Part shown: positions 12,940 to 32,719 of the stretch, piece after piece
Layout of the letters: the number at the start of each line of letters is the position of its first letter
Position numbering within the stretch: the stretch's first letter is position 1
NCBI GenBank assembly: GCA_018822845.1
Contig: JAHJJD010000107.1
Location: 1-36,125, forward strand
From: Gammaproteobacteria bacterium
GTDB lineage: Bacteria > Pseudomonadota > Gammaproteobacteria > Thiotrichales > Thiotrichaceae
Length of the DNA stretch: 36,125 nucleotides
Direction: 5' to 3'
Translations under genes and position numbers: made by a program
Notes under the pieces: generated by a model
The model's input: only the letters and a program-made list of their open reading frames with translations
Database searches by the model: none
What the model was told of the DNA's origin: nothing

Positions 12940-14763
12940 TTAATCGTAGCAAGTTTTCAACAACCCAATCATTTTTTCCCGATGAGATTTTATGTTCTCT
13001 AACCCAACCTCTGTATTATCCCAGACATTATATTCCATCATTAATTTTTGCTTTAGGCTGCTTGGTTTATGTCCCTTCTTCTCTGTAGGCAAGCGATTAC
13101 TTAATCTCGAATTTTCACTACCACTAACCAAACATAAATTACCAAAATTATCACAACCTCCATTAAGATCATTATCGCTAATTTTTTTAGAACTCATGCC
13201 CTCTGACTCAAAAGGATTCTGAGGATAATGATGTTCAATAGAGTTTTTGTATGAAAAGTGAAAATCGTTATGATTGTTTCGGTCTTCATTCCAAATCAAA
13301 TAATCAAGCAAATTAAAAACAAATCTGTTAACACTAGTTCCTTCATCAAGAGATGAATTTAACTCTCCAAATGACTTAAAGTAACTTTTTATTTTTTCAA
13401 GCCTAATTTTTTGCAGAAAATTACAATAATCATAAGAGTCAATTTCTTTTTTCTCACAAAGCCATGCCAATGTTTCCTTTAGCCAGCTTTTATAGTTGTG
13501 TGAATAAAAAGATACCTCAAGCATAGAAATAGCCATAATTATTTCTTTATTGATTTTGTCATCAGAAAAAGTATTTTTTAAATTAAACTTGAGATTTTTT
13601 CCTTGATCCTGATCAATAAAAACCCGTTCCAATCTCCATTCTTTTTCAGAGCTTCGTTTAACAAGGTATTTATCAAATAAATTTCTGCATTTAAGCAGTG
13701 TCTCAGCAAATAATTTTACAATGCATTCATTCCATTGAATTTTTTCAAAATTCTCTATTAGCTTTTTATCATCAAGCGCAATAGTTTTATCTCCCAAGGT
13801 AATTAACTTTCTTTCCTCGACAAAAATTGACAATACATGCAATAGAAAGTTAGGAAAATCAATAATGGATTTCACAGAACCATCTTGGAGTTTCTGAGAT
13901 AATTTATTATCATATTTTAGCGGTTTTCTGAGTATATCCCTAAGCTCCTCACTGTCTTCAGAATTTTCTATGCCACTTTTAAAAAAATCAAGATAACAAT
14001 CAAATGAAATTTCATTATTAAATATCTGACTTGATTGAGATGCCGAAAATTTTTTCTGAACGTAGCAATTCATATTGGCACAGGAATCCCATATTTTTGC
14101 GAAAACTTTTCGCTCATTTTCTTTTTCTTTAGGGATATAGCTCATAATTTTAGCTTTTAATATCTCATGCTTTTCTAGCTGTTCTCCTCTATTATTCATA
14201 ATTTCAAAATATGCGCTAACATCTGTATTATTTGGTACTTTCACTCTTAATAAATAGACACTTTCTCGGAAATATGCAAAAAAAGCATTCAATTTCCCTT
14301 GTTCTACGTCTAACTCTTTTAGTTTAATTTTTATATTATGGTAAGCAGAAATCATTGAATACTCAGCGTTTCTTTGATCCGAAACTACCCCATTGCCATA
14401 TAGATCCTGTAACGTTTCTGTAGAGACATTTCTAGCTTCAAATCCCAATGATACTTTCATCGAATCATTAACTGATTCATATATACTAGAGAAGTCATTT
14501 TTTAACACCGCGAGTAATATGCAGAGTGTCGTATAGCGTTGTTGACCATCAATAATATCATACTTATTAAGACCTTTATCAAAAACAACCAAACTACCAA
14601 TATAGTAATGCTTGGTTTCATTTCTACGAGCATCATTTATATCATCAATTAGTTGATTGATTTCCCTATAACCCCAAGCATATTCACGCTGATAAATTGG
14701 TATCACATATTGATCAGAATAATTAAATAATTTTTTTATTGATAATGAAGCAACATCACTCAT
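12940..14763 (-). CDS. DUF262-DUF1524 protein (GmrSD-like nuclease), large subunit
   Basis: A 607-aa protein. The N-terminal DUF262 (ParB-like, NTP-using) domain has YQREYAWG near residue 25 and DGQQR at 72-76. The C-terminal DUF1524 is an HNH-type nuclease domain with EHHYPQ at about 510-515, NFGNLCLVS near 540 and SNRLPTEKK near 555. This domain pair occurs in GmrS-GmrD fusions and SspE, which cut phage DNA with modified bases or sense modified host DNA. Start at 14763 because it overlaps the partner's stop by 8 nt; the longer frame to 14826 lies inside the partner gene. AT-rich codon use marks it as recently acquired. Confidence 0.85.
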   Translation of the reverse strand: MSDVASLSIKKLFNYSDQYVIPIYQREYAWGYREINQLIDDINDARRNETKHYYIGSLVVFDKGLNKYDIIDGQQRYTTLCILLAVLKNDFSSIYESVNDSMKVSLGFEARNVSTETLQDLYGNGVVSDQRNAEYSMISAYHNIKIKLKELDVEQGKLNAFFAYFRESVYLLRVKVPNNTDVSAYFEIMNNRGEQLEKHEILKAKIMSYIPKEKENERKVFAKIWDSCANMNCYVQKKFSASQSSQIFNNEISFDCYLDFFKSGIENSEDSEELRDILRKPLKYDNKLSQKLQDGSVKSIIDFPNFLLHVLSIFVEERKLITLGDKTIALDDKKLIENFEKIQWNECIVKLFAETLLKCRNLFDKYLVKRSSEKEWRLERVFIDQDQGKNLKFNLKNTFSDDKINKEIIMAISMLEVSFYSHNYKSWLKETLAWLCEKKEIDSYDYCNFLQKIRLEKIKSYFKSFGELNSSLDEGTSVNRFVFNLLDYLIWNEDRNNHNDFHFSYKNSIEHHYPQNPFESEGMSSKKISDNDLNGGCDNFGNLCLVSGSENSRLSNRLPTEKKGHKPSSLKQKLMMEYNVWDNTEVGLENIKSHREKMIGLLKTCYD

Positions 14764-16138
14764 CACAATCTCCATTTGAAAGGTCATCAATAAGTTTTTT
14801 AATTTCTTCAAGGTAATTCGCACCATCGGAATTAGTCACTGGTGGCAAATAAACATTGATAACATCTAAAGGTGTTAGGGCATTTTCGATTATGTAAAAT
14901 AAATTATCGGCATTTGGTGGTTTCGATAAATTATCAATTGTTTGGATAGAAATTCGTCCATGCCTCAATCTAATAGAATAGCTCCATATGAAACAAACCC
15001 TAACCGCAGTGGAAAAATGGTTTTTATTTGAATCTCCAAATTTATCATAATAAAAAAGCAATGTATTTTCAAATAACATCCTCACGAGTAAATCTCCAGT
15101 TCTCATTCTAGCCCTAGGATTATAACTTTCAATCACTCCAAAAACTTTCTTTGCACATGAATTCTTATGCTCTCTCAAATGTGTCAATTTTTGAATATAC
15201 ATCTCTATATATTCAAAAAACAACTTTCCATTAATTAATATCTGATTTAATTGAAAAGGATATTGGCTTTTTCCATAGTCTAATGAGTTTGCGGAAATAA
15301 GTCCCATTGTTTTAAATAGGGATTCAATTAACGTTTGTTGACTCAAGTAAGGATAAAATGTTTCTTTTGAAGAAAAGCCAACGCCTTTGAAGAGATCAAT
15401 ATTATCTTTCGAGAAATTAGCACCAGATGAATTATGCATTAGCCATGACCGAATACGGAAAAGGTGATTGCTAAAAATTTCGTGCAATGGGTTATCTTTT
15501 ATTACTTTAATTCTATCATCACCTTTATTGTCAATTCTTTTTTTCCATCTTTCATTGCATTCAAACTTTTCACTTTCTGAGTTATAACGCATCTCTCCAA
15601 GATGAAAAGCCTTAAGTAGATCATATGCTTCTAATGGTTTTCCTCGGGCATTTTGCGAATCAAAAAACTGAAATGCTTCCGATAAATCATCAATAACAAT
15701 ATAAGCCATTTCGCAGTTTTCTGAAATAAATTTCTTTAAATCCCTATTACCGCCATTGGTTTTAAGCTCTCTCATTACACAGTGGTAGTTATTGCTTATA
15801 TGTTTTTTGCTAATTTCCTGATCAAATTTATGTGAGAGAAGTGATATTTCTAGTTCCCCCAAGTAATATAAGATTATACTCAAAGTAACAAGACGTTGTT
15901 GCCCATCAACGATATCCCATTTATCTTTATCTTTATCTTTATCTTTATGAATAACCACACTACCAATTCTGTATTTACCTATTCCTTGGTTCTTTATAAT
16001 GTCGTTAATCAATTGTTTAACGTGTTTCTCAGACCATTTATAGGGTCTTTGATATTCAGGAAGAGTTAAAGGACGATGTGGATCATTAAGAATTTCCTTA
16101 ATATTTTTTATTTTTGTTTCAGCAACTACAATAGCCAT
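14756..16138 (-). CDS. DUF262 protein, small partner
   Basis: A 460-aa protein with an N-terminal DUF262 domain: LPEYQRPYKWSE near residue 27 and DGQQRLVTL at 78-86, with FFDSQNARGKPLEAYDLLKA near residue 158. No DUF1524 or HNH motif is visible in the rest, which is helical and unassigned. It precedes and overlaps the DUF262-DUF1524 gene, so the two likely act together, perhaps one as NTP-driven sensor or regulator of the other. A (KD)4 run at residues 65-72 from a hexanucleotide repeat lies just before DGQQR. AT-rich, with no clear ribosome site. Confidence 0.8.
   Translation of the reverse strand: MAIVVAETKIKNIKEILNDPHRPLTLPEYQRPYKWSEKHVKQLINDIIKNQGIGKYRIGSVVIHKDKDKDKDKWDIVDGQQRLVTLSIILYYLGELEISLLSHKFDQEISKKHISNNYHCVMRELKTNGGNRDLKKFISENCEMAYIVIDDLSEAFQFFDSQNARGKPLEAYDLLKAFHLGEMRYNSESEKFECNERWKKRIDNKGDDRIKVIKDNPLHEIFSNHLFRIRSWLMHNSSGANFSKDNIDLFKGVGFSSKETFYPYLSQQTLIESLFKTMGLISANSLDYGKSQYPFQLNQILINGKLFFEYIEMYIQKLTHLREHKNSCAKKVFGVIESYNPRARMRTGDLLVRMLFENTLLFYYDKFGDSNKNHFSTAVRVCFIWSYSIRLRHGRISIQTIDNLSKPPNADNLFYIIENALTPLDVINVYLPPVTNSDGANYLEEIKKLIDDLSNGDCDE
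15921..15944. repeat. Hexanucleotide tandem repeat, four units of TTATCT
   Basis: Four exact TTATCT copies inside the small DUF262 gene (read as Lys-Asp pairs on the minus strand). Unit length is a multiple of three, so slippage changes length without frameshift. Confidence 0.85.
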
Positions 16139-21142: not shown

Positions 21143-21334
21143 GACCGCACATCTTAGCCTGTTTGTACGTCAAGCCAAACCGCAATTCCCGCACTAACCT
21201 TTCAAATCCACCACGCCAGCAATAACAACTTCATGCAACGCTCATAACCCCGTATGCTGCACCGCATATAATCAGGCGTTTCCCCCTGAATATGACCAAC
21301 AATGATTTTTGACCCCACCAATACGGAGAAAACA

Positions 21335-22117
21335 ATGGGTAGTATCCATTTCATCGGCGGCGAGAAAGGCGGCGTAGGCAAATCCCTCACCACACGCCTG
21401 CTGGCGCAATACTTCATCGATCGGGGTGTCAGCTTTGCCGGTTTTGATTCTGACCAGTCGCACGGCACGTTTTCACGCTTTTACGCCGAATTCACCGCAC
21501 TGCTGGACGTGGAAAAATTCGACAGTCTGGACGCGATCCTCGAAACGGCGGAAACCTACCCGGAAACGCAAATCCTGGTCGACCTTGCCGCCCAGACCGG
21601 CAAACACCTGAACCAGTGGATTGAGGAAAGCGATGTGTTTGGCATTTTCGCCGAACTGAACCGCACGGCTTACCTGTGGCATGTGATGGATGACGGTGCG
21701 GATTCCATGTTCCTGCTGGAAAAACTGCTGGCACAGCAACCGGCAGGCGTGCAGATCGTTGTCGTGCAGAACCTGGGGCGCAGCGAAGACTTCAGCCATT
21801 TCGAACAATCCGCCACTTACCGCAAGGCGCAGGAACAGGGCGTCCGTTTCGTCACCCTGAAAAAGCTGCAACCCAACCTGATGCAGAAAGTCGATTTCAG
21901 CAACCTGAGTTTCTGGGCCGCCGCCAACAACCGCGACCTGATGAGTATTGCCGAACGCAAGCGCGTCGCCGTGTGGCTGGATAACACCTATGCGCAATTC
22001 GACCCGTTTCTGTCACAGGGGTTACCCCGGCTGGCAGCAACACCAGCAGCCCCCTTTGAAGAAGCGCCTGGCGCAAACCTTATCCAGTTTGCGCAAACAC
22101 ATGAAAACTACGCTTAA
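21335..22117 (+). CDS. ParA/MinD-like P-loop ATPase
   Basis: A 260-aa protein with the deviant Walker A EKGGVGKS (residues 8-15), a second acidic motif in GFDSDQSHG (about 34-42) and LVDLAAQTGKHL as Walker B-like segment. Start at 21335 after GGAG. Similar proteins are often labelled mobilisation or nitrogenase-reductase-like ATPases, but no relaxase or plasmid gene is near. The gene is convergent with, and overlaps by 4 nt, the Cys4 small gene of the SIR2-like operon, so the three may form one conserved neighbourhood. I see no sigma54 promoter in its 190-bp upstream region. Function unknown. Confidence 0.75.
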   Translation: MGSIHFIGGEKGGVGKSLTTRLLAQYFIDRGVSFAGFDSDQSHGTFSRFYAEFTALLDVEKFDSLDAILETAETYPETQILVDLAAQTGKHLNQWIEESDVFGIFAELNRTAYLWHVMDDGADSMFLLEKLLAQQPAGVQIVVVQNLGRSEDFSHFEQSATYRKAQEQGVRFVTLKKLQPNLMQKVDFSNLSFWAAANNRDLMSIAERKRVAVWLDNTYAQFDPFLSQGLPRLAATPAAPFEEAPGANLIQFAQTHENYA

Positions 22118-22341
22118 GCGCTATTTTCCCGCCGGTATTTGACCTTCTTCACCAGTTTGCGGGCGATGTAGTCCGCAAACTGTTCCACATTGGCGTAATC
22201 CTGCTCAATCACGAAATCGCTGAGTTCATTCATCAGGTAGACCGTGCGCGCCACCTCGCTGAGCTTGCGGCCACAGGTCAGGCAACGTTCACCGTCGTCA
22301 CGGCAAGCGTCCTTGCCCTTGCAAGCAACAAATTCGCGCAT
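22114..22341 (-). CDS. Small Cys4 protein, DUF1289-like
   Basis: A 75-aa protein with four cysteines C7, C13, C20 and C23 (CKGKDAC … CLTCGRKLSEVART). The pattern recalls the DUF1289 zinc/Fe-S knuckle (C…C…CxxCGR-x-L-x-E). The rest is a charged helix (VEQFADYIARKLVKKVKYRR). It starts 2 bp after the SIR2-like stop, clearly the same operon, and so would share its sigma54/NifA-type promoter. It probably binds a metal or small cluster. Function unknown. Confidence 0.75.
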   Translation of the reverse strand: MREFVACKGKDACRDDGERCLTCGRKLSEVARTVYLMNELSDFVIEQDYANVEQFADYIARKLVKKVKYRRENSA

Positions 22342-22343
22342 GG

Positions 22344-23204
22344 TCAGGCCGCCTCGGCAGGGGAAAAACCGGCAGCCGCCAGCAGGTCGGGCACATCCGC
22401 TTCGATGATTTCGATGCCCTGACGCCCGCAGTAGCGTTTTTCCTTGTCGGTCGGTTGCGAAATCAGCGCCCAGCCTTTGGGTTCGTCAGCGGCGTAGGTA
22501 ATATCCGCCATCACCATGCGGTCAGTATCGCGCTGGAAACGCAGCCCAATGAACAGATACTGCTTTTCCTTACGGTATTCCTTAAGGAAATCAGGAATCG
22601 CAAACCCGCCCATCAGCTCGGTGATGTAGTCCACGTAATCGGCGTCGGAAGCGATGTAATTGGCATCCGGGCGCGGGCTGCCCATCGGCTTGAACAAGAT
22701 AGGCAGTGCGGGATTGACCTCTTCCTGGGTAATTTCGCGATAGCCGCCGCTACCCACGTATTCATTCAACACGAAACGGTAATTGGTGCCCGCAATCCGC
22801 GCCGTTCCCCGGATCAACGTATGCGGTTGGTCGGCGTAGGTATCCTGCAACTGGGTGTCACGGTTGGTATCGATCACGTAATGCGGCTCAATACTGGCCA
22901 GCCAGTCGTGCAGCGGGGCGCGAGTCCACTGGCGCTTGCCATAGGTTTCTTCCAGGAAATTGTGGACGGCCTTGCGCCCGCGTTTCAGCTCCACATTCAT
23001 CGCCGCGCGCGGGAATTCCCACATCAGGCGCTGCGCCATCGGTTTGCCGCCATTCATCGCCAGAATCAGGCTGTCGCTATCGGCAGGAATCGGCTGACCG
23101 TGGATTTTATCGACTGAACCCTGCAACGCACCTGCGCCGAGATAGGGGACGATCTTGCCGCTGGTAACCCCGGCAAGCAGGGATTTGAGTGTCATCTCCG
23201 ACAT
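22344..23204 (-). CDS. SIR2-like protein in a nif-type operon
   Basis: A 286-aa protein with the layout of SIR2_2-type domains: N-terminal VPYLGAGAL (residues 19-27, the NAD-binding GAG), YVIDTNRD (109-116, matching the TTNYD element, N114), LFKPMGSPRP (170-179, matching the K-x-HG-S element) and YLFIGLRFQRDTDRM (216-230). The catalytic His expected in the third motif is Met174, so NAD hydrolysis is doubtful. ATG at 23204 follows GAGGA. It heads a two-gene operon with the Cys4 protein and has a -24/-12 promoter and a NifA site upstream. Role unknown; binding of NAD or ADP-ribose is an inference. Confidence 0.78.
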   Translation of the reverse strand: MSEMTLKSLLAGVTSGKIVPYLGAGALQGSVDKIHGQPIPADSDSLILAMNGGKPMAQRLMWEFPRAAMNVELKRGRKAVHNFLEETYGKRQWTRAPLHDWLASIEPHYVIDTNRDTQLQDTYADQPHTLIRGTARIAGTNYRFVLNEYVGSGGYREITQEEVNPALPILFKPMGSPRPDANYIASDADYVDYITELMGGFAIPDFLKEYRKEKQYLFIGLRFQRDTDRMVMADITYAADEPKGWALISQPTDKEKRYCGRQGIEIIEADVPDLLAAAGFSPAEAA

Positions 23205-23244
23205 GGCTGTTCCTCAATGGTATTGCAATACATGAAGAGTGTTC

Positions 23245-23260
23245 TGCAATTTTGAGGCCA
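23245..23260 (-). promoter_or_regulatory. sigma54 promoter of the SIR2-like operon
   Basis: On the minus strand TGGC (23260-23257), seven bases, TTGCA (23249-23245): TGGCCTCAAAATTGCA. The elements and spacing match sigma54 consensus; the AC after TGGC is CT. Transcription would start near 23233, about 29 nt before the ATG, as for the other nif promoters here. Confidence 0.7.
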
Positions 23261-23301
23261 TATATTTTTATACTTGAATATCAATCACATAATAATGGCA
23301 T

Positions 23302-23317
23302 TGTGATATTACCGACA
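23302..23317. promoter_or_regulatory. NifA upstream activator site (SIR2-like operon)
   Basis: Exact TGT-N10-ACA (TGT 23302-23304, ACA 23315-23317). Its centre is about 51 bp upstream of the -24 element on the minus strand. A GTAG repeat begins 2 bp beyond it. Confidence 0.65.
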
Positions 23318-23319
23318 AC

Positions 23320-23352
23320 GTAGGGTGGGTGGAGCGTAGCGATACCCACCAT
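23320..23352. repeat. GTAGGGTGGGT…ACCCACC hairpin repeat
   Basis: GTAG, then GGTGGGT paired with ACCCACC around a short loop (GGAGCGTAGCGAT). A near-identical copy lies between nifH and nifD (32735-32769). Confidence 0.85.
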
Positions 23353-23876
23353 CAAACTGGTGGAAAACGTAGCCGGGAAAATGCCCGCCCAGCCTGAACG
23401 GCCTTGCGCTCAACCTCTGCGGCTGATGCCAACCAGCCTTTTTGTTCGAGAAACAACAGGAAAGCACGTGTGCTGATTTTGTGGCAACCCTCCGGCAGCA
23501 AGAAGCTGGCGCGGGCAATCTTGTGGTCTTCAAACAGGAAAATGCCCGTTGGCGGCTTCGCCAGCAAGGCAAAGTCCGTCATCACTTCCTGTATCGCCAA
23601 CTCGCCCAGATTGGCTTTGCGGGGTATCTCACCGGTTGCCAGGGCTTGTGTGTAGCGCTGGTAAACGCGGGTTTCCCGTACCGGCAACTGCTGTTGCGCC
23701 AGCCATGCAGCAATTTTCTGGCTGGTAGGCGTCTGGTTACGGGTAACTTCATGCAGCACCATATCCACCATTTGTACTGTCCAGCCGGGTAACAGCAGCA
23801 CATCCAGCGCATCCGCATAGGCCAGTGTGATCAACGGCCCGGCATCCGCCAGCAGGATAACCGGGTTATCCACCAT
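23352..23876 (-). CDS. PIN-like toxin
   Basis: A 174-aa protein starting LLADAGPLITLAYADALDVL, the DAGPLI form of the PIN-domain first acidic motif; later acidic residues in NLGELAIQEV and LFEDHKIAR would complete the metal site. PIN toxins are Mg-dependent ribonucleases. Start at 23876 is preferred (CGGAG upstream); it overlaps the antitoxin stop by 11 nt, the normal arrangement of toxin-antitoxin pairs. Its stop region touches the GTAGGGTGGGT repeat. Confidence 0.8.
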   Translation of the reverse strand: MVDNPVILLADAGPLITLAYADALDVLLLPGWTVQMVDMVLHEVTRNQTPTSQKIAAWLAQQQLPVRETRVYQRYTQALATGEIPRKANLGELAIQEVMTDFALLAKPPTGIFLFEDHKIARASFLLPEGCHKISTRAFLLFLEQKGWLASAAEVERKAVQAGRAFSRLRFPPV

Positions 23877-24231
23877 GGGCGGCTCCGGGCGGCAGAGCAT
23901 TCAGGACATCAACCATCTTTTGGGTCACGCTATCCGGCAGGCGCGGCATCGGCAAGTGCGCCTGCGCCATCAGCAGGAACAGGTCTTCGCTGCTGTCGAT
24001 ACCCAATGCAGTCATTGCGGTCAGGTCGTCGATCCTGCCCAGCGAGAAATCCAGCAGCGTGCGGAAATTCTGGTTGCTGGCAGTTTCGGCAGCCTCGAAG
24101 GTTTCCACCAGATAACGCAATTCGGCATTGAACAAGGCATTGACGGAAGTATCGGATTTCGCCGCAATCACCTTGGCGCGGCGCAACAGGTCGCGGTCAA
24201 CCGAACCTGTGAAATTGACGGTGGCAGACAT
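23866..24231 (-). CDS. Antitoxin partner of the PIN-like toxin
   Basis: A 121-aa protein whose N-terminus (TVNFTGSVDRDLLRRAKVIAAKSDTSVNALFNAELR) looks like a ribbon-helix-helix DNA-binding domain, followed by a helical toxin-binding part. It precedes and overlaps the toxin gene. Such antitoxins usually repress their own promoter. Family name beyond that is not clear. Confidence 0.78.
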   Translation of the reverse strand: MSATVNFTGSVDRDLLRRAKVIAAKSDTSVNALFNAELRYLVETFEAAETASNQNFRTLLDFSLGRIDDLTAMTALGIDSSEDLFLLMAQAHLPMPRLPDSVTQKMVDVLNALPPGAAHGG

Positions 24232-25276: not shown

Positions 25277-25462
25277 ATGCTGACACAGGCTAAAAAACTC
25301 GCCCGTTTCCGGCAAATTCGCCGCCGTAACTACCGCGCCAGCTTGCGCTTGGAAGGGTTTGCGCCATCAAGCCAAACGCATTTGGACGAACAAGCACCCT
25401 TGCTTTCCCCGCAAGATATTGAAAGCCGCATTGCCCAAATCAAGGCAAGGTATGTCGGATAA
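25277..25462 (+). CDS. YhfG-like Fic antitoxin
   Basis: A 61-aa basic protein: LTQAKKLARFRQIRRRNYRASLRLEGF, then a C-terminal ALESRIAQ-like helix (DIESRIAQIKARYVG). SLRLEG fits the (S/T)xxxE(G/N) inhibitory motif by which class I antitoxins block Fic AMP-transferases. ATG at 25277 after AAAGGAA. It overlaps fic by 11 nt. Confidence 0.82.
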   Translation: MLTQAKKLARFRQIRRRNYRASLRLEGFAPSSQTHLDEQAPLLSPQDIESRIAQIKARYVG

Positions 25463-26042
25463 ATACGGTGTCAGCCAAGACCCGGATTGTTACCCGAACA
25501 GTTTGGTGCTGGTCAACAAGCTCAATATCCGTGATGCGCAGGAGTTGGAGGCTGTTGAAGCTGAGTTGACCCAGCTTCGCAGCGAATCCTTTGAGCCGGA
25601 TTTTGCCGCGTTTGATTTAGGTGCGTTGGCGGCGATTCATCGGCATCTATTTCAGGACATTTACCCGTGGGCGGGGCAACTCCGCACGGTGGACATCAGC
25701 AAAGGCACTACCCGTTTCTGTTCTACCCAATACATCCAGAAAGAGGCTGACCGCTTGCTTGCCCGTTTGCAATCTGAGCAATGGCTGGAGGGACTGGCGT
25801 TGCCTGAGTTTGTTACCAAGATTGCGGATTATTATTGCGAACTGAATGTGATTCATCCGTTCAGGGAAGGCAACGGGCGTACCCAACGTTTGTTTTTCGA
25901 GGCGATTGCCCTCAATGCGGGGTATGAGGTGGATTGGTCACAAGTGAACCGGGATGAATGGCTGGATGCCAACATCCGGGGGTATTTCGCTGATCTTGCG
26001 CCATTGCAGGCAATCTTTGCGCGGATTGTCAGCAGTTTGTAG
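25452..26042 (+). CDS. fic: Fic-domain AMP-transferase (toxin)
   Basis: A 196-aa protein with the full Fic motif HPFREGNGRTQR and upstream IYPWAGQLRTVDIS, the flap region. Fic proteins transfer AMP from ATP to target proteins. No inhibitory motif occurs in this protein, in keeping with a separate antitoxin. Start at 25452 lies within the end of the antitoxin gene, next to AAGG. It is convergent with the STAND-WD40 gene, 7 bp away. Confidence 0.92.
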   Translation: MSDKYGVSQDPDCYPNSLVLVNKLNIRDAQELEAVEAELTQLRSESFEPDFAAFDLGALAAIHRHLFQDIYPWAGQLRTVDISKGTTRFCSTQYIQKEADRLLARLQSEQWLEGLALPEFVTKIADYYCELNVIHPFREGNGRTQRLFFEAIALNAGYEVDWSQVNRDEWLDANIRGYFADLAPLQAIFARIVSSL

Positions 26043-26049
26043 AACCGCC

Positions 26050-29000
26050 TCACCCTCCCGCATATGGCTCTACCCAGCCTTCTTCGCCGGGGGCTGGCAA
26101 ATCCGGGCAGGTCTTTTCGTATGGCAAGGCATCACCGATGAAGCGTTGCCATTCGGCGAGGCTGAAATTGCGGTTGACGATGGAGCAGGCTTTTTTTGCC
26201 CAGCTTTCGGGGTCAGCGTCCCAAAGACGCAAGATGCCCTCATCCCCACCGATGGCCACATATCCGCCATCTGGGCTGAATGCTACTGCCTGAATTGGTT
26301 CTTTATAGCCCTGCCAAAGCGTTCCAATAACCTGTCTACTGGCTGTATTCCACAAACGCACGGAATTAAAGCTACGGCTAACAACAAACCGACCATCAGG
26401 GCTGAAAGCTATATCATCGATTTCAAACCCGTGCCCACGCCATGGTTGGCCAATAGTTTTACCGGTGGAAATATCCCATAATCGTAAAGTCTCATCAGTG
26501 CTGCCGCTGATAACATAGCGACCATCTGGACTAAAAGCTGCTGCCATCACAGGAGCTTCATGCCCACGCCATGGCTGACCAATAGTCTTACCAGTAGATG
26601 TATCCCATAACTGTAAGGTTTCATCATCACTACCGCTGATTACGTAACGATCATCTGGACTAAAAGCTACCCCTCGAACGGTCTTTTCATGTTCGCACCA
26701 CAATTTCCCAACAGGTTGGGTATTTATTGCTACATTCCAAAGACGCAAACAATTACCTGCGGCGCTAATTAAACTGTGCCCATCGTGACTGAAGGCGAGC
26801 GCATTAATTTGTTTATATTCGTGCCATGGCTCACCCTCACTTTGCCCGCTTGCTACATTCCATTGGCGTAAGGTTTTGTCCCAACTACCACTAACTACGT
26901 ACTTACTATCCGGGCTGAATGCTATTGTCGATATAGTGAACCTATGCCCCTGCCATGGTTGGTCAGCAGGTTTTTTATTCGCAATGTTCCATAATAATAA
27001 TTCACTGAATCCACTTGTAACTATGTATTTCCCATCAGGGCTAAATGCCAAAGCAGATATGCCAGACTCCAGCTTTGGCGACCATGATTCAGTAATTGAT
27101 TGTCCACTCGCAATATTCCACAGCCGTAATGTCTTATCTACGCCAGTACTGGCTATATATTTACCATCTGGACTAAACTTAACATCTCTAATATTACCCT
27201 CATGTCCTTGCCATGGAGTACTGATAGTTTGACCTGTGGCAATATCCCATAAAAGAAATGTTGTGTTATTATCTGCGCTACTGACCACATATTTCCCATC
27301 AGGGCTAAAGCTGATCGAAGTCACTCCTCCTTCAGCTATATGACCTTTCCACGGTTCTCCAACAATCTTCCTCGTGGCAACGTCCCACAGTCGCAACGTA
27401 TTTTCCATAATGTTATCGCCACTAACTATATATTTACCGTCTGGGCTGAATGCGATTGCAAATGCGAAGAATTCATTTCCTGTCCATGGGCTACCGATGG
27501 TCTTCCCAGTTCTAACATCCCAAAGACGCAGAGCCTTGTCCCAACTGCTACTAATCACGTACTTACCATCAGGGCTAAATGCTAACGCAGTAACCCTCCC
27601 TCCTTCCTCCTTATCGTTACTAACCACTTGCCATGGTTCACCAATAGTTTTGCCTGACTCAACATCCCAAAGGCGTAAAGTTTTATCCCATCCCCCGCTA
27701 ATCACATATTTCCCATCGGGACTAAAGGCTAATCCATTAATGTTACCCTCATGTCCTCGCCATGCTTCACCGACTAAACTTGGAACACCTGTCGTAACAT
27801 CCCATAGATATAAGGCTCCCTCACTATCACAAGTAATTACATGCCTACCAGTTGGACTGAATGTCACATTGTTAAAAATATGCTTATAGCTATTATTCGA
27901 TCTACCAATAAGCTGACCATTATCAGTACTCCATAACCGCAATGAGTCATCAGCGCTTATAATAAACTTTCCATCAGGACTGAAATCCAACTCTGCTACT
28001 GATCCAAGATAAATCACTCGCTGTAAATGTGTTTCTTGCAAAGTATCCCATAGTAAACCCTGTGTGAACGATTGCTGGGTATTTAAGCGAAATGATTGAA
28101 TGACCAATAATAAGCCCTGCGTGACATACCCATTAGCCAGTGATGGTGAACTTGTTGCCAATTTGGCTTGATTAGATAATTTAGCGACTAATGCGGTATA
28201 AGCTTGTTGTTTAGCTTCCTGCCACTGCCAAATAGTTGCTGCAATGCCAACCAATAGCACCATAACGAAAGCAAATGATGAGCCTATCCACAATTGCTTA
28301 CGCCGTTTTTCCTCAGTTTGACTAGCAGCTATAAAAGCTCTTTCGTTTTGCCCAATAAGTAAAGAACTTGGATTTCTGCCAATGATTTGCTGGGCTTCCG
28401 CCAGCCGTTTTTCCCTTAACAAGCTACCACTTACGTTGTTTTTCCAAGCGGTGATGCTGTCTTCCAAACGCAACCGCCAACTTTTGATTTCGCGGTTGCT
28501 TTCCAGCCAGCCACGTAGCCGCTGCCAGTCGCGGATCAGAGCTTCATGCGCTACGGTGATGGTGGCTTGCCCGTAGTCGTCGTGGTCTTGGGTCAGTAGG
28601 CGTTCGTGCGTGACCAGTTGCGCCAGCAGCGCATCAAGGGCTGCGGTGTATTGCGGTTGGCGGTTGTGGAGTTCTTGCAGGGTGACGGTGTGGCGCGTGT
28701 CGTCCTGCCCGTCGCCGACTTGGGTGAGTTCCACCATCAGCCATTCCATCAGGCGTTGCTGTTGGGGTTCGAGTTGCTGGTAAAAGGCATCGGCTTTTTC
28801 GTTCAGCACGCCGCGCAAACCGCCGCCGTGTTGCCCGCCCAATTGCCGGTACATCGCCAGTGTCAGTTCGCGGCTGCGTTCCTGCCGTGCGGATTGCCAA
28901 AGTTTTTCCAGCACGTATTGCAGCAGCGGCAAGCTGCCCTTGGCGTGTAGGGTCTGGTCAACCAGTTCGTCTTCCAGTGCCTGTTCGCAGCGCATCCCCA

Positions 29001-30336
29001 CCAGTGCCAGCGGACGGGTGATGGCTTCGCGCAATTCGCCCGCCGTCGGCGCAACCAGCAGCAGCGTGTGGTGTTGCAGGCGTTGCCCCAGCCCGGAGTA
29101 TGCCTGTTCGGTGCAATGCCCCAGAAAATCCGCCCGCAAGGTCAGCACCAGATGCAGCGGATTGTCGCTGTCCAAGGCTTCCAGCAGGCAGGCGAAAAAC
29201 GCCGCCCGCGCCACATCATCGTGGCATTCGGTGAACACTTCCTCAAACTGGTCAATCACCAGCAGCAGCCGTTTACCCGCAGTGACCAGCCGCAATACCT
29301 CACGCTGCAAATCCGCACCACTCGCCAGCGTACCGACCTGCGCATCAGGAAAACCGCGCACCAGCGTATCCCGCAAGTTCTGCAACGGCTGGGCAGTCGG
29401 GCGCATCACCAACACCTGCCAATCGCTTTCCGGCAATTTCGGCAACAACCCCGCCAGCACCAGCGACGACTTGCCACTGCCCGAAGCCCCCAGCAGCGCT
29501 ACAAAGCGGCTGGCACTGAGCTTGTCGAGCAATTGCTGGATCATGCCGTCACGCCCGAAGAAGAATGGGCTGTCGTCCTTGGTGAAGGTCAACAAACCTT
29601 TGTACGGCGGGTAATCCGGCGGATACGCTGACGTGACCGTTGTCTCGCCGTGAAACTGGGTCAGGGTAAACGCCGTGTTGCCCCGTGCCAGACAGACGAC
29701 CTGTTGTGGCAAGTTTTTACCTTTGGCGGCAATCGTCTGGATGAAATCCATCACCCTGATTTCTGGAGGGTTGCCATTCAGTGGTGTCAACGCCTCACAC
29801 AGCAGGTTGGTCAGCAGACTGTTGCCATCAGCGGCAAGGGCTTCCCCATCCGCATGGGATGCCGCCACCACGCAAAACCCTTTGTCGGTCAAATCGGAAA
29901 ATTCCAGCATTTCCCCGCTGTGGCAGCAGTCCAGCCAAATGCAAATATTCTTGACCGCGCTGTGCTTCGCCAGTTTGGCGATATGGGAAATGGCAACCGC
30001 CAACGGCTTGTCACTGGCGGACAAATACGCCACTTGCCCGTCGGGATTAATCCCATGCCCGGAAAAGTAGAACACCGCCAGTTCCACCTCATCCGCCAAC
30101 TGCGGGTTCAATACCTCATGCAGCTTGGCACGTAATTCTTGCGCCGTTACCCAACCTGAACGGTCTACCTCACCCTGTGCCAGTGGTAACGGATAAAGTT
30201 CATCAAAACCACCGTATTCCGCCAACACCTCATAAACCCGCTGTGCATCATTGACAGGCGCGGCAAGGCTATCCAATCCGGTACGGGTTTTGTCATACTG
30301 GCTGACACCAACAATCAGGGCGATACGGCGCGACAT
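26050..30336 (-). CDS. Caspase-nSTAND-WD40 conflict protein
   Basis: A 1428-aa protein. Residues 1-220: caspase-like C14 peptidase, with RRIALIVGVSQYD, catalytic H94 (FSGHG) and C138 (DCCHSG). Residues about 245-610: nSTAND1-type NTPase, beginning PPYKGLLTFTKDDSPFFFGRD, Walker A GASGSGKSS (283-291), Walker B LLLVIDQFEE (357-366), and VAHEALIRDW near 600. One membrane segment at about 682-704. Then 14 WD40 repeats (about 790-1390), enough for two seven-bladed propellers. This is the receptor-switch-effector layout of bacterial NLR-like conflict proteins: WD40 senses, STAND oligomerises, the protease acts. Start at 30336 is chosen since the frame's earlier start overlaps the divergent gene. The WD40 half is markedly more AT-rich. 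Confidence 0.93.
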   Translation of the reverse strand: MSRRIALIVGVSQYDKTRTGLDSLAAPVNDAQRVYEVLAEYGGFDELYPLPLAQGEVDRSGWVTAQELRAKLHEVLNPQLADEVELAVFYFSGHGINPDGQVAYLSASDKPLAVAISHIAKLAKHSAVKNICIWLDCCHSGEMLEFSDLTDKGFCVVAASHADGEALAADGNSLLTNLLCEALTPLNGNPPEIRVMDFIQTIAAKGKNLPQQVVCLARGNTAFTLTQFHGETTVTSAYPPDYPPYKGLLTFTKDDSPFFFGRDGMIQQLLDKLSASRFVALLGASGSGKSSLVLAGLLPKLPESDWQVLVMRPTAQPLQNLRDTLVRGFPDAQVGTLASGADLQREVLRLVTAGKRLLLVIDQFEEVFTECHDDVARAAFFACLLEALDSDNPLHLVLTLRADFLGHCTEQAYSGLGQRLQHHTLLLVAPTAGELREAITRPLALVGMRCEQALEDELVDQTLHAKGSLPLLQYVLEKLWQSARQERSRELTLAMYRQLGGQHGGGLRGVLNEKADAFYQQLEPQQQRLMEWLMVELTQVGDGQDDTRHTVTLQELHNRQPQYTAALDALLAQLVTHERLLTQDHDDYGQATITVAHEALIRDWQRLRGWLESNREIKSWRLRLEDSITAWKNNVSGSLLREKRLAEAQQIIGRNPSSLLIGQNERAFIAASQTEEKRRKQLWIGSSFAFVMVLLVGIAATIWQWQEAKQQAYTALVAKLSNQAKLATSSPSLANGYVTQGLLLVIQSFRLNTQQSFTQGLLWDTLQETHLQRVIYLGSVAELDFSPDGKFIISADDSLRLWSTDNGQLIGRSNNSYKHIFNNVTFSPTGRHVITCDSEGALYLWDVTTGVPSLVGEAWRGHEGNINGLAFSPDGKYVISGGWDKTLRLWDVESGKTIGEPWQVVSNDKEEGGRVTALAFSPDGKYVISSSWDKALRLWDVRTGKTIGSPWTGNEFFAFAIAFSPDGKYIVSGDNIMENTLRLWDVATRKIVGEPWKGHIAEGGVTSISFSPDGKYVVSSADNNTTFLLWDIATGQTISTPWQGHEGNIRDVKFSPDGKYIASTGVDKTLRLWNIASGQSITESWSPKLESGISALAFSPDGKYIVTSGFSELLLWNIANKKPADQPWQGHRFTISTIAFSPDSKYVVSGSWDKTLRQWNVASGQSEGEPWHEYKQINALAFSHDGHSLISAAGNCLRLWNVAINTQPVGKLWCEHEKTVRGVAFSPDDRYVISGSDDETLQLWDTSTGKTIGQPWRGHEAPVMAAAFSPDGRYVISGSTDETLRLWDISTGKTIGQPWRGHGFEIDDIAFSPDGRFVVSRSFNSVRLWNTASRQVIGTLWQGYKEPIQAVAFSPDGGYVAIGGDEGILRLWDADPESWAKKACSIVNRNFSLAEWQRFIGDALPYEKTCPDLPAPGEEGWVEPYAGG

Positions 30337-30407
30337 AAGCGGGTTCTCTGTAGCAGCAAACGCCCCTATGATAGTATGAAAACTCCACACGACAAAAGGT
30401 AAAACGC

Positions 30408-30800
30408 ATGGCAACGCTGAAAGCAATGGAACTGGAAAACGGGCAATGGGTATACGTGCAGGTCAATGAAAACATCACCTTTGCCGATACTCCGTCAGAC
30501 ACACAGCCCGTCACACGCGGCGGCGGTTTTGAACGCAAAGGCGACACCACCAGAGGTTTGGCAACCCAAGCCCACAAAGCCGTGGACAAACTCGGCGACG
30601 TGATCCGCGCCATGTCCGACACTGCCGCCAAAGCCCTGCAAGATTCCGCCTTCGGCAATGTAGACAAGGTAACGCTGGAGTTTGGCATCACACTCGGCGG
30701 GGAGGCTGGCATTCCCTTCATCACCAGCGGCAAAGCCGAAGGTTCAGTCAATGTGAAAGTGGAATTTGCCCCCAAGGAAAAGAAAGAAACGTCCGACTAA
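30408..30800 (+). CDS. Trypco1-type (CU044_2847 family) protein
   Basis: A 130-aa protein. Its C-terminal half, VDKVTLEFGITLGGEAGIPFITSGKAEGSVNVKVEF in pieces, is the trypsin-co-occurring domain 1 signature, in which KVTLEFG, GGEAGIP and a final beta strand are constant. The N-terminal half starts as a beta strand (MELENGQWVYVQV). Such proteins occur beside trypsin, caspase and STAND conflict genes. Here it is divergent from the caspase-STAND-WD40 gene, 71 bp away; TATGAT near 30366 could be its -10 box. AAAGG precedes the ATG. A polar C-terminal tail ends in KEKKETSD. Confidence 0.8.
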   Translation: MATLKAMELENGQWVYVQVNENITFADTPSDTQPVTRGGGFERKGDTTRGLATQAHKAVDKLGDVIRAMSDTAAKALQDSAFGNVDKVTLEFGITLGGEAGIPFITSGKAEGSVNVKVEFAPKEKKETSD

Positions 30801-30889: not shown

Positions 30890-31714
30890 TCAGGAGGTAA
30901 TGTTCACCTCATACACCCCACCAACCACCAAAAACTCCCCCTCCCCCCGCAACAACTTCGGCAGCAAATCGTAATACCCCATCACCTTCACCACCGGCAC
31001 CCGTGCCTCAATCACATAATCCCCAAACTCATCCGCCCGCTCACGGTTGTTGGTAAAGGAACTGACATTGTTCATCAGCACCACCGCCCGCTTGCCATCG
31101 CGCTGCAACACCCGGTACTCATCCAGCGCATTCACCCCCCGGTACAGCGTGATGTGGCTTTGTAGTGAATGTGACAAACCCAGTTCGTACTGACAATACG
31201 TATAAACAAGGTCGAGCTGGCTTTCCAGCGCATTGGTGCCATACAGCCCCTTACAACGGTCGAACTGGAAATTCCCCTGATGGTATTGCACCGTCAGGCC
31301 AAAGCGCGATTCCACCCAGCCCTTCAGCACCGCGCCCTCGCGCCCGTTGGAATCAAACGCCCAGCCGCGCAGCACCCGCAAGTAATTGGCGTTGGCGCGT
31401 TTATTCCCGCTAGCGGGCATCAGACCGGCCTCTTCCAGCGCTTCCAGACAGAAATGTACCGTCATGTAATCCATGAAACGTTGCCCACGCGACAACGCAT
31501 CCGGCAAGCCTTGCAGGTGGGTAAACAGGGATTTGTGCAGGGTTTCCACCCCATCCAGCACTAATGGCACGGGATGTTGCTGGAAACTCAGGCTGCCAAG
31601 CAGGCGGGCGGGCAGGTTACAACGGTTGAAGGGCAGGAAAGCACTGTCCTTACCCATACAAATTGTATCGGTATTGTCGGGAACGCGACCTGTACCAACA
31701 CCCGGATTTTTCAT
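30890..31714 (-). CDS. draT: DraT, dinitrogenase reductase ADP-ribosyltransferase
   Basis: Transfers ADP-ribose from NAD to the conserved Arg of NifH (Arg101 here) under ammonium or energy stress, switching nitrogenase off. Family stretches are NRCNLPARLLGSLSFQQHPVP, LRVLRGWAFDSNGREGAVL, VESRFGL, YRGVNALDEY and GEGEFLVVGG. Start at 31714 gives 274 aa, close to the known DraT length; an ATG at 31657 would give 255 aa, and neither has a good ribosome site. The open frame further upstream to 31813 runs through the nifH promoter and is not believed. It is divergent from nifH, with a NifA site inside its 5' end. Confidence 0.93.
   Translation of the reverse strand: MKNPGVGTGRVPDNTDTICMGKDSAFLPFNRCNLPARLLGSLSFQQHPVPLVLDGVETLHKSLFTHLQGLPDALSRGQRFMDYMTVHFCLEALEEAGLMPASGNKRANANYLRVLRGWAFDSNGREGAVLKGWVESRFGLTVQYHQGNFQFDRCKGLYGTNALESQLDLVYTYCQYELGLSHSLQSHITLYRGVNALDEYRVLQRDGKRAVVLMNNVSSFTNNRERADEFGDYVIEARVPVVKVMGYYDLLPKLLRGEGEFLVVGGVYEVNITS
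31645..31660. promoter_or_regulatory. NifA upstream activator site (nifH)
   Basis: Exact TGT-N10-ACA (TGT 31645-31647, ACA 31658-31660), centre about 118 bp from the nifH -24 GG. It lies within the first codons of draT. Confidence 0.6.
31675..31690. promoter_or_regulatory. Possible second NifA site (one mismatch)
   Basis: TGT-N10-ACC, one base off consensus, centre about 88 bp from the -24 GG and 30 bp from the exact site. Paired sites also occur before nifB and iscA. Confidence 0.4.
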
Positions 31715-31747
31715 GGAAGAAACAGTTTTTCGCTTTATAAACAATGA

Positions 31748-32719
<972 letters not shown>

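Follow-up and report, generated by a model that had tools for sequence, protein, structure and literature searches.

A two-gene operon lies on the minus strand of a 36,125-nucleotide contig (JAHJJD010000107.1, assembly GCA_018822845.1, from a gammaproteobacterium of the Thiotrichaceae; the whole stretch is called the window here), linked to nitrogen fixation (nif) genes and preceded by exact copies of a sigma54 promoter element and a NifA upstream activator site. The larger gene encodes a 286-residue protein that is predicted to keep the SIR2 fold and appears to have lost the catalytic residues of sirtuins. It very probably belongs to the pnfA family, a member of which is needed in another bacterium for full nitrogenase activity. 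The smaller gene encodes a 75-residue protein with four cysteines (Cys4). We propose, at a probability of roughly 0.6, that the operon is a nif accessory unit under NifA/sigma54 control, whose non-catalytic PnfA-family protein sustains nitrogenase post-transcriptionally during respiration. NifA and RpoN dependence and the mutant phenotype are reported by others, in P. stutzeri; the degenerate active site, the distribution of the gene, its nif-restricted Cys4 partner and the recurrent hemerythrin neighbours are added here.

The -24/-12 element (TGGC-N7-TTGCA) and the NifA site (TGT-N10-ACA) before the operon are both exact, as the initial annotation had stated. They stand 41 bp apart, edge to edge on the minus strand; counting from the middle of the NifA site, the -24 element is some 50 bp away, in line with the 51 bp given at that time. 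The window holds four exact matches to TGGC-N7-TTGCW, compared with a mean of 1.28 in shuffled windows (3 of 100 shuffles reached four), and 15 exact matches to TGT-N10-ACA, compared with a shuffled mean of 8.3 and a maximum of 14. The remaining three exact -24/-12 sites precede nifQ (7838), an iscA-type gene (10001) and nifH (31838), at each of which the same pattern had been claimed; the copy upstream of nifB, named along with them, has one mismatch. An exact -24/-12 match taken alone is weak evidence, and since lone matches are not rare in shuffled windows, conservation across relatives was tested.

The relatives were 80 loci, the best 80 of 558 found, which lean towards the window's own subfamily; two with less than 300 bp upstream (L031, L099) were dropped from the promoter count. 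Among the remaining 78, the -24/-12 core was present with at most one mismatch in 66, a NifA site within 300 bp in 60, and the two in tandem in 46, with start codons set by rule, such that some promoter distances are off. Tandem elements arose in a mean of 0.1 and at most 2 loci over 200 first-order Markov randomisations of the same set, and in one case each in the within-gene and random-window controls. The promoter is conserved in relatives well beyond chance. The low chance of co-occurrence that had been asserted for this promoter holds for the tandem arrangement. In the window's own genus, taken to be Thiothrix, both elements were found within 400 bp upstream in 5 of 11 regions; L003, L004, L006 and L010 have the NifA site too, with a -24/-12 element that is identical or one base off. 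Because the NifA site of the window is intact although draT, a frequent upstream neighbour in relatives, is 7.6 kb off, the promoter is an old feature of the pseudo-sirtuin gene and not a product of the arrangement in the window. A palindromic repeat, GTAGGGTGGGTGG...ACCCACC (23320-23351), abuts the NifA site upstream, and a similar copy occupies the same place in L004.

The 286-residue protein matched Pfam SIR2_2 (7e-8), and a model made from 48 sequences predicted a SIR2 fold with a mean confidence score (pLDDT) of 93.6. The 50 best solved structural matches listed by Foldseek were SIR2 domains of DSR2, KomC/HAM-SIR2 and AVAST5, with E values of about 1e-9 to 1e-7, template modelling (TM) scores of about 0.6 and 13-17% identity. 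No PDB entry came up at E<=1 when the sequence alone was the query, and a profile search gave weak matches to KomC (0.005) and ThsA (0.02). NCBIfam and PADLOC (the latter at E<=1) returned no family for either operon protein.

In sirtuins an Asn and a His are the catalytic residues. The assignment of this role to the aligned residues follows KomC H146 and DSR2 H171, which the titles of structure entries name as mutated, and the general sirtuin background; the SIR2_2 protein of G198, a genome in which no nifD was found, served as the canonical reference. Among 128 aligned family members, the Ser of the GAGAS motif is kept in one and replaced in 127, the first Thr of TTNYD is kept in two and is Asp in 121, the catalytic Asn is kept in 104 (24 have Trp), and 14 retain the His of KMHG. 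Only three of the 128 have both Asn and His; the window protein has the Asn, with Met replacing the catalytic His. When the profiles were aligned by hhalign, these columns were again paired along almost the whole length (probability 99.2). The alignment consists of the 80 loci, 41 copies from other genomes, six from rhizobial plasmids and the window protein, near copies included; L102 (the window again), L127 (G048), L128-L129 (the canonical protein), the fragments L145-L149 and the genus copies L002-L013 were left out. As the predicted fold is kept and the catalytic pair appears to be gone, the protein is best described as a putative pseudo-sirtuin, and the lost residues weaken the guess in the initial annotation that it is tied to NAD or ADP-ribose. 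Other Thiothrix SIR2_2 proteins were considered as the canonical reference and dropped, the sought motifs not being found in them. The usual motifs with Asn and His could not be located in eight such same-genus loci (L150-L156, L160), whose open frames span 221-834 residues, the majority close to 500.

A 64-row tree split the family into two subfamilies, with rough branch supports of 100/98 and 99/96; the canonical row had a very long branch (7.28), the bootstrap of the tree had not converged, and the tree was treated as unrooted. The window's subfamily, which takes in the 80 gamma, beta and zeta loci, keeps the Asn and mostly has Met or Leu in place of His; one of its members, from Dechloromonas sp. 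H13 (L092), shares 63% identity with the window protein. The second subfamily, with Trp for Asn, accounts for 24 of the 128 rows, namely six from rhizobial plasmids, nine from the window's class and nine from other classes, so the split is not strictly taxonomic. Matching plasmid records numbered 72 at 1e-5 and 74 at 1e-3, and 70 of the 72 are from Rhizobium, Sinorhizobium, Mesorhizobium or Bradyrhizobium. A match from Nonomuraea is in a record without annotation.

The gene follows nitrogenase closely. We counted nifD at the TIGR01282 cut-off and added G274, in which nifD is split over contigs. Among 57 close relatives the gene is present in 12 and nifD is over the cut-off in 11, all 11 being gene carriers; the twelfth carrier, G006, has only a nifE-like match, with nifD below the cut-off, and its copy of the gene is broken. 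That copy (L011, L013) sits behind nifA and seems to reflect erosion of the nif set or an error in sequencing. A class-level sample of 369 genomes held 29 carriers and 31 genomes with nifD (32 with G274), 27 having both (Fisher p about 1e-33); the carriers without nifD are G113, a genome at 81% completeness, and G198, in which the match is the canonical outgroup SIR2. Gene and nifD share one contig within 45 kb in 20 of these 27 genomes and are on separate draft contigs in seven. In a phylum-level sample of 398 genomes there were 17 carriers, 41 genomes with nifD and 15 with both; the carriers without a nifD call, G458 and G636, have nifE-like matches below the cut-off. The initial annotation had named a contrary pattern, homologues mostly in non-diazotrophs with no sigma54 promoter. 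What we find is that 27 of 29 and 15 of 17 carriers have nifD and that the gene, present in 27 of 32 class genomes with nifD, usually has its own conserved NifA promoter elements in the loci surveyed for them. The gene is near nif-specific, yet not universal in diazotrophs. With the promoter and the fold prediction, this distribution bears out the earlier view that the SIR2-like gene is a nif accessory under its own NifA-sigma54 promoter.

When the 80 loci were searched with a limited reference set of markers (nif, dra, fix, fdx and fprA), 62 had one or more. In 56 of the 62 there is a marker beyond nifU/nifS/iscA, fdx, fix or fprA, and the other six have only nifU/nifS/iscA, fdxN or fprA; no marker from this set was found in the remaining 18 loci, several of which are on short contigs. 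In the window, linkage to the nif structural genes holds.

Searches of Pfam, NCBIfam and PADLOC with the second protein of the operon returned nothing at E<=1. Its model (pLDDT 92.7) predicts a cysteine-rich start followed by a two-helix hairpin, and nothing in the PDB resembles it meaningfully (best E 6.3). The four cysteines are invariant in 12 aligned Cys4 members; the L079 copy, outside that set, departs. Weak similarity to DUF1289 was found for eight of the 12 members at E<=5 (best 2e-5) and for the window copy not at all at that threshold. Of 80 genomes, 17 have Cys4, namely 16 with nifD plus G113; it was not detected in any of the list's 21 nif-less genomes. In 13 of the 17 the pseudo-sirtuin gene is no more than 130 bp away; the distance is 538 bp in G197, Cys4 lies elsewhere in G746 and G113, and G092 has Cys4 and no pseudo-sirtuin. 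We propose that Cys4 is a lineage-specific, nif-restricted partner of the pseudo-sirtuin.

Sequence clustering of the 78 loci that extend 300 nt or more downstream placed a Cys4 open reading frame (ORF) behind the gene in 13 and a hemerythrin-type ORF within 450 nt downstream in 20; 11 of the 20 were tested against Pfam, and all 11 matched over the cut-off. Both occur in L024, L040, L045, L046 and L079, although the hemerythrin ORF of L040 has just 61 residues. Other genes also stand behind the operon or its larger gene. A ParA/TraL-like ATPase gene (21302-22117, weak matches) converges on the Cys4 gene, the ends overlapping by a few bases, and is also beside Cys4 in L002, L003, L006 and L010. 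In Rhodocyclaceae and relatives (L066, L078, L081, L090, L092, L098) a protein of 185-201 residues is encoded behind the pseudo-sirtuin gene, and the one member examined, of 185 residues, had no Pfam match at E<=0.1. In the Methylococcaceae-type loci L060, L070, L076, L089 and L095 the downstream ORF is of the DUF364/DUF4213 putative heavy-metal chelation kind (matches: L087, L095), and in L067, from a Beggiatoa relative, it reads by eye as an ammonium transporter.

The initial annotation had called the system undescribed, but pnfA (2010), msi351 (2013), Rcc03262 and ZMO1821 (2021) had already been reported. P. stutzeri A1501 PST1325 was named pnfA in a study that describes it as divergent from nifH and carrying a -24/-12 element plus TGT-N10-ACA (PMC2820453). 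According to that report, its transcript rises 9.68-fold under N2 fixation and falls to 0.15 after ammonium shock, and NifA-sigma54 dependence was concluded from quantitative reverse-transcription PCR in nifA and rpoN mutants. A non-polar pnfA mutant is reported there to have 23% nitrogenase activity at 0.5% oxygen with an unchanged nifH transcript, and to lose nitrate-supported anaerobic fixation while still growing on nitrogen-free semisolid medium. The same source gives a D. aromatica RCB relative as 54% identical to PnfA and reports that DraT and DraG were not found in A1501 (PMC2820453). PST_1325 is labelled 'SIR2 family protein' in a 2024 paper (PMC11332353), and the A1501 nif island including PST1325 has been expressed in E. 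coli (PMC6053447). Azotobacter vinelandii is also reported to have a pnfA homologue. M. loti msi351 has been called 'prokaryotic sirtuin-like' and placed in a NifA operon (PMC3538637), R. capsulatus Rcc03262 is reported as not found in a nifA1-A2 double mutant (PMC6925177), a SIR2 gene is described behind nifT in Rhodovulum (PMC9412634), and Z. mobilis ZMO1821 rises under N2 fixation (PMC8600466, PMC8594446). According to a figure legend, one nif cluster of gamma origin includes a hemerythrin (PMC11208148). A selective literature search brought up no paper describing loss of the catalytic site or a hemerythrin adjoining the gene.

Taken with these reports, we favour a model in which NifA and sigma54 would activate the operon and its protein would be made when nitrogenase is made. 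The PnfA-family protein would then act after transcription, keeping nitrogenase active during respiration at low oxygen or with nitrate. It most likely would bind or sense something, either nucleotide or redox state or a protein partner, and would not be an enzyme. The Cys4 protein would be its partner in some lineages; in others a hemerythrin is encoded behind the gene, and in some both are.

Several points weigh against this model. Orthology with PST1325 is suggested by position, promoter, size, annotation and the pattern of relatives; the loss of catalysis is deduced from aligned residues, and an oxygen or redox role is proposed. The gene is absent from 5 of 32 class genomes with nifD (G092, G103, G211, G228, G355) and from 26 of 41 in the phylum sample. 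Neither promoter element was found within 400 bp upstream in 6 of the 11 same-genus regions; four of these six copies directly follow nifA, the other two following a different ORF. The M. loti msi351::lacZ strain is reported to be fully effective in symbiosis (PMC3538637), so the role is either not general or not limiting there. Anaerobic phototrophs (Chromatiaceae loci) carry the gene and are ill-suited to a purely respiratory role, and this, together with the msi351 result, argues against a simple oxygen-protection story.

The main rival to a respiratory accessory role, a serious contender though well short of probable, is that the protein is an assembly or stability factor like NifT, NifW or NifZ, in which the SIR2 fold would be reused for docking to NifH or NifDK and redox would play no part. 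The gene directly follows nifT in six of six annotated rhizobial records examined, and in 22 of the 80 loci it stands adjacent to nifH and divergent from it, draT not intervening; the reported loss of activity with a retained nifH transcript in the P. stutzeri mutant would fit as well. A maturation defect should nevertheless show anaerobically without nitrate, where the A1501 mutant is reported to equal the wild type (activity being low in both), and the mutant's growth on nitrogen-free semisolid medium also speaks against this rival. NifT itself was found in 73 of 80 genomes of the list used for the DraT count; since it is nearly everywhere there, its presence says little.

A bolder version of the sensing model, which we regard as doubtful, holds that the pseudo-sirtuin senses the cell's nucleotide or redox state and is itself what adjusts nitrogenase activity, as a missing DraT-independent switch, with a Cys4 protein, putatively of a zinc type, or a hemerythrin bringing metal or oxygen information. 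A1501 is reported to switch nitrogenase off with no DraT or DraG found, which makes the gene a candidate for such a mechanism.

We consider it improbable that the protein is catalytically active and removes acetyl groups from lysines of nitrogenase or NifA in an NAD-dependent way, as was suggested for ZMO1821 in 2021 (PMC8600466). The predicted SIR2 fold and the reported acetylation of nitrogenase and NifA in Z. mobilis (PMC8600466) are in its favour. The sequence evidence, drawn from the 128 aligned members, argues against this published suggestion for the nif-linked SIR2 protein, given the rarity of the intact Asn and His pair, the Met in the window protein and the replacement of the NAD-loop Ser in 127 of 128 members.

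Equally improbable is a partnership with the DraT/DraG ADP-ribosylation switch, to which the initial annotation had tentatively tied the operon. Synteny with draT is genuine: in 13 of 80 loci draT begins no more than 1.7 kb upstream, on the same strand; in 21, draG is found on the opposite strand no more than 6 kb downstream; and seven have both. In T. caldifontis (L020) draT adjoins the gene, its stop codon three bases before the NifA site. The distribution does not support the tie. Among 75 genomes with nifD, the gene and DraT occur together in 21, the gene alone in 23 and DraT alone in 26, and 5 have neither, so that DraT is missing from 23 of 44 nifD genomes carrying the gene; the DraT and NifT counts were run without the same-genus genomes G001, G002, G009, G010 and G013. 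Dependence on DraT was rejected because the two so often occur apart, and A1501, in which DraT and DraG were reportedly not found, has a pnfA mutant with a phenotype. Finally, a stray anti-phage SIR2 effector of DSR, KomC or Thoeris type, caught among nif genes by accident, has next to nothing to recommend it, since against its nearest solved folds (DSR2, KomC) and the defence-like genes nearby stand the absence of a PADLOC match at E<=1, the lost catalytic residues, a distribution in our samples that is near nif-restricted and a conserved NifA promoter.

Coordinates of the operon, its promoter elements and the interval to draT are collected in Table 1. Within that interval, 26050-30426 encodes a 1458-residue nSTAND1/WD40 protein with a start that looks caspase-like by eye, a Fic gene occupies 25359-26042, and an ORF at 23866-24231 is weakly antitoxin-like (E 0.03, below the cut-off). 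Inside the nif region, at 12940-16138, two overlapping genes have GmrSD restriction N-terminal domains.

Table 1. Features of the pseudo-sirtuin operon and its surroundings in the window.
Feature	Position	Strand	Remarks
Putative pseudo-sirtuin of PnfA kind, 286 aa	22344..23204	minus	predicted SIR2_2 fold; Met at catalytic His position
Cys4 protein, 75 aa	22114..22341	minus	predicted Cys-rich start and two-helix hairpin; some relatives distantly DUF1289-like
sigma54 -24/-12 element TGGCCTCAAAATTGCA, TGGC-N7-TTGCA	23245..23260	minus	exact match
NifA upstream activator site TGTCGGTAATATCACA, TGT-N10-ACA	23302..23317	minus	exact match
Interval from NifA site to draT stop codon	23318..30889		about 7.6 kb; 3 bases in T. 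caldifontis
draT	30890..31813	minus	Pfam DRAT 3e-90; frequent upstream neighbour in relatives, separated here

An accessory gene of this kind may matter for moving nitrogen fixation to new hosts, and its closest described counterpart is PnfA. The two are alike in size (31.7 kDa for PnfA), in promoter elements and in having close relatives only in diazotrophs, Dechloromonas among them, as reported for PnfA. PnfA adjoins nifH divergently, an arrangement shared with more than a quarter of our loci. The two differ in that the window gene has Cys4 behind it and is separated by 7.6 kb from draT, in contrast to A1501, where DraT and DraG were reportedly not found. The authors of the first pnfA study compared the protein with other folds, those of UspA and the electron transfer flavoprotein (ETF), and the passages of that paper considered here report no SIR2 fold. 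The SIR2-like gene of R. etli p42d is likewise part of a nif operon, follows nifT and belongs to the second subfamily; its protein is 26% identical to that of the window and has Trp for the catalytic Asn. By description, M. loti R7A msi351 is comparable as a SIR2-like gene in a NifA-regulated operon, and R. capsulatus Rcc03262 as a SIR2 family gene with a locus number next to that of nifT. The SIR2 NADases KomC and DSR2, which have an anti-phage role, have the fold in common with the window protein but, unlike it, keep the catalytic His (H146 and H171).

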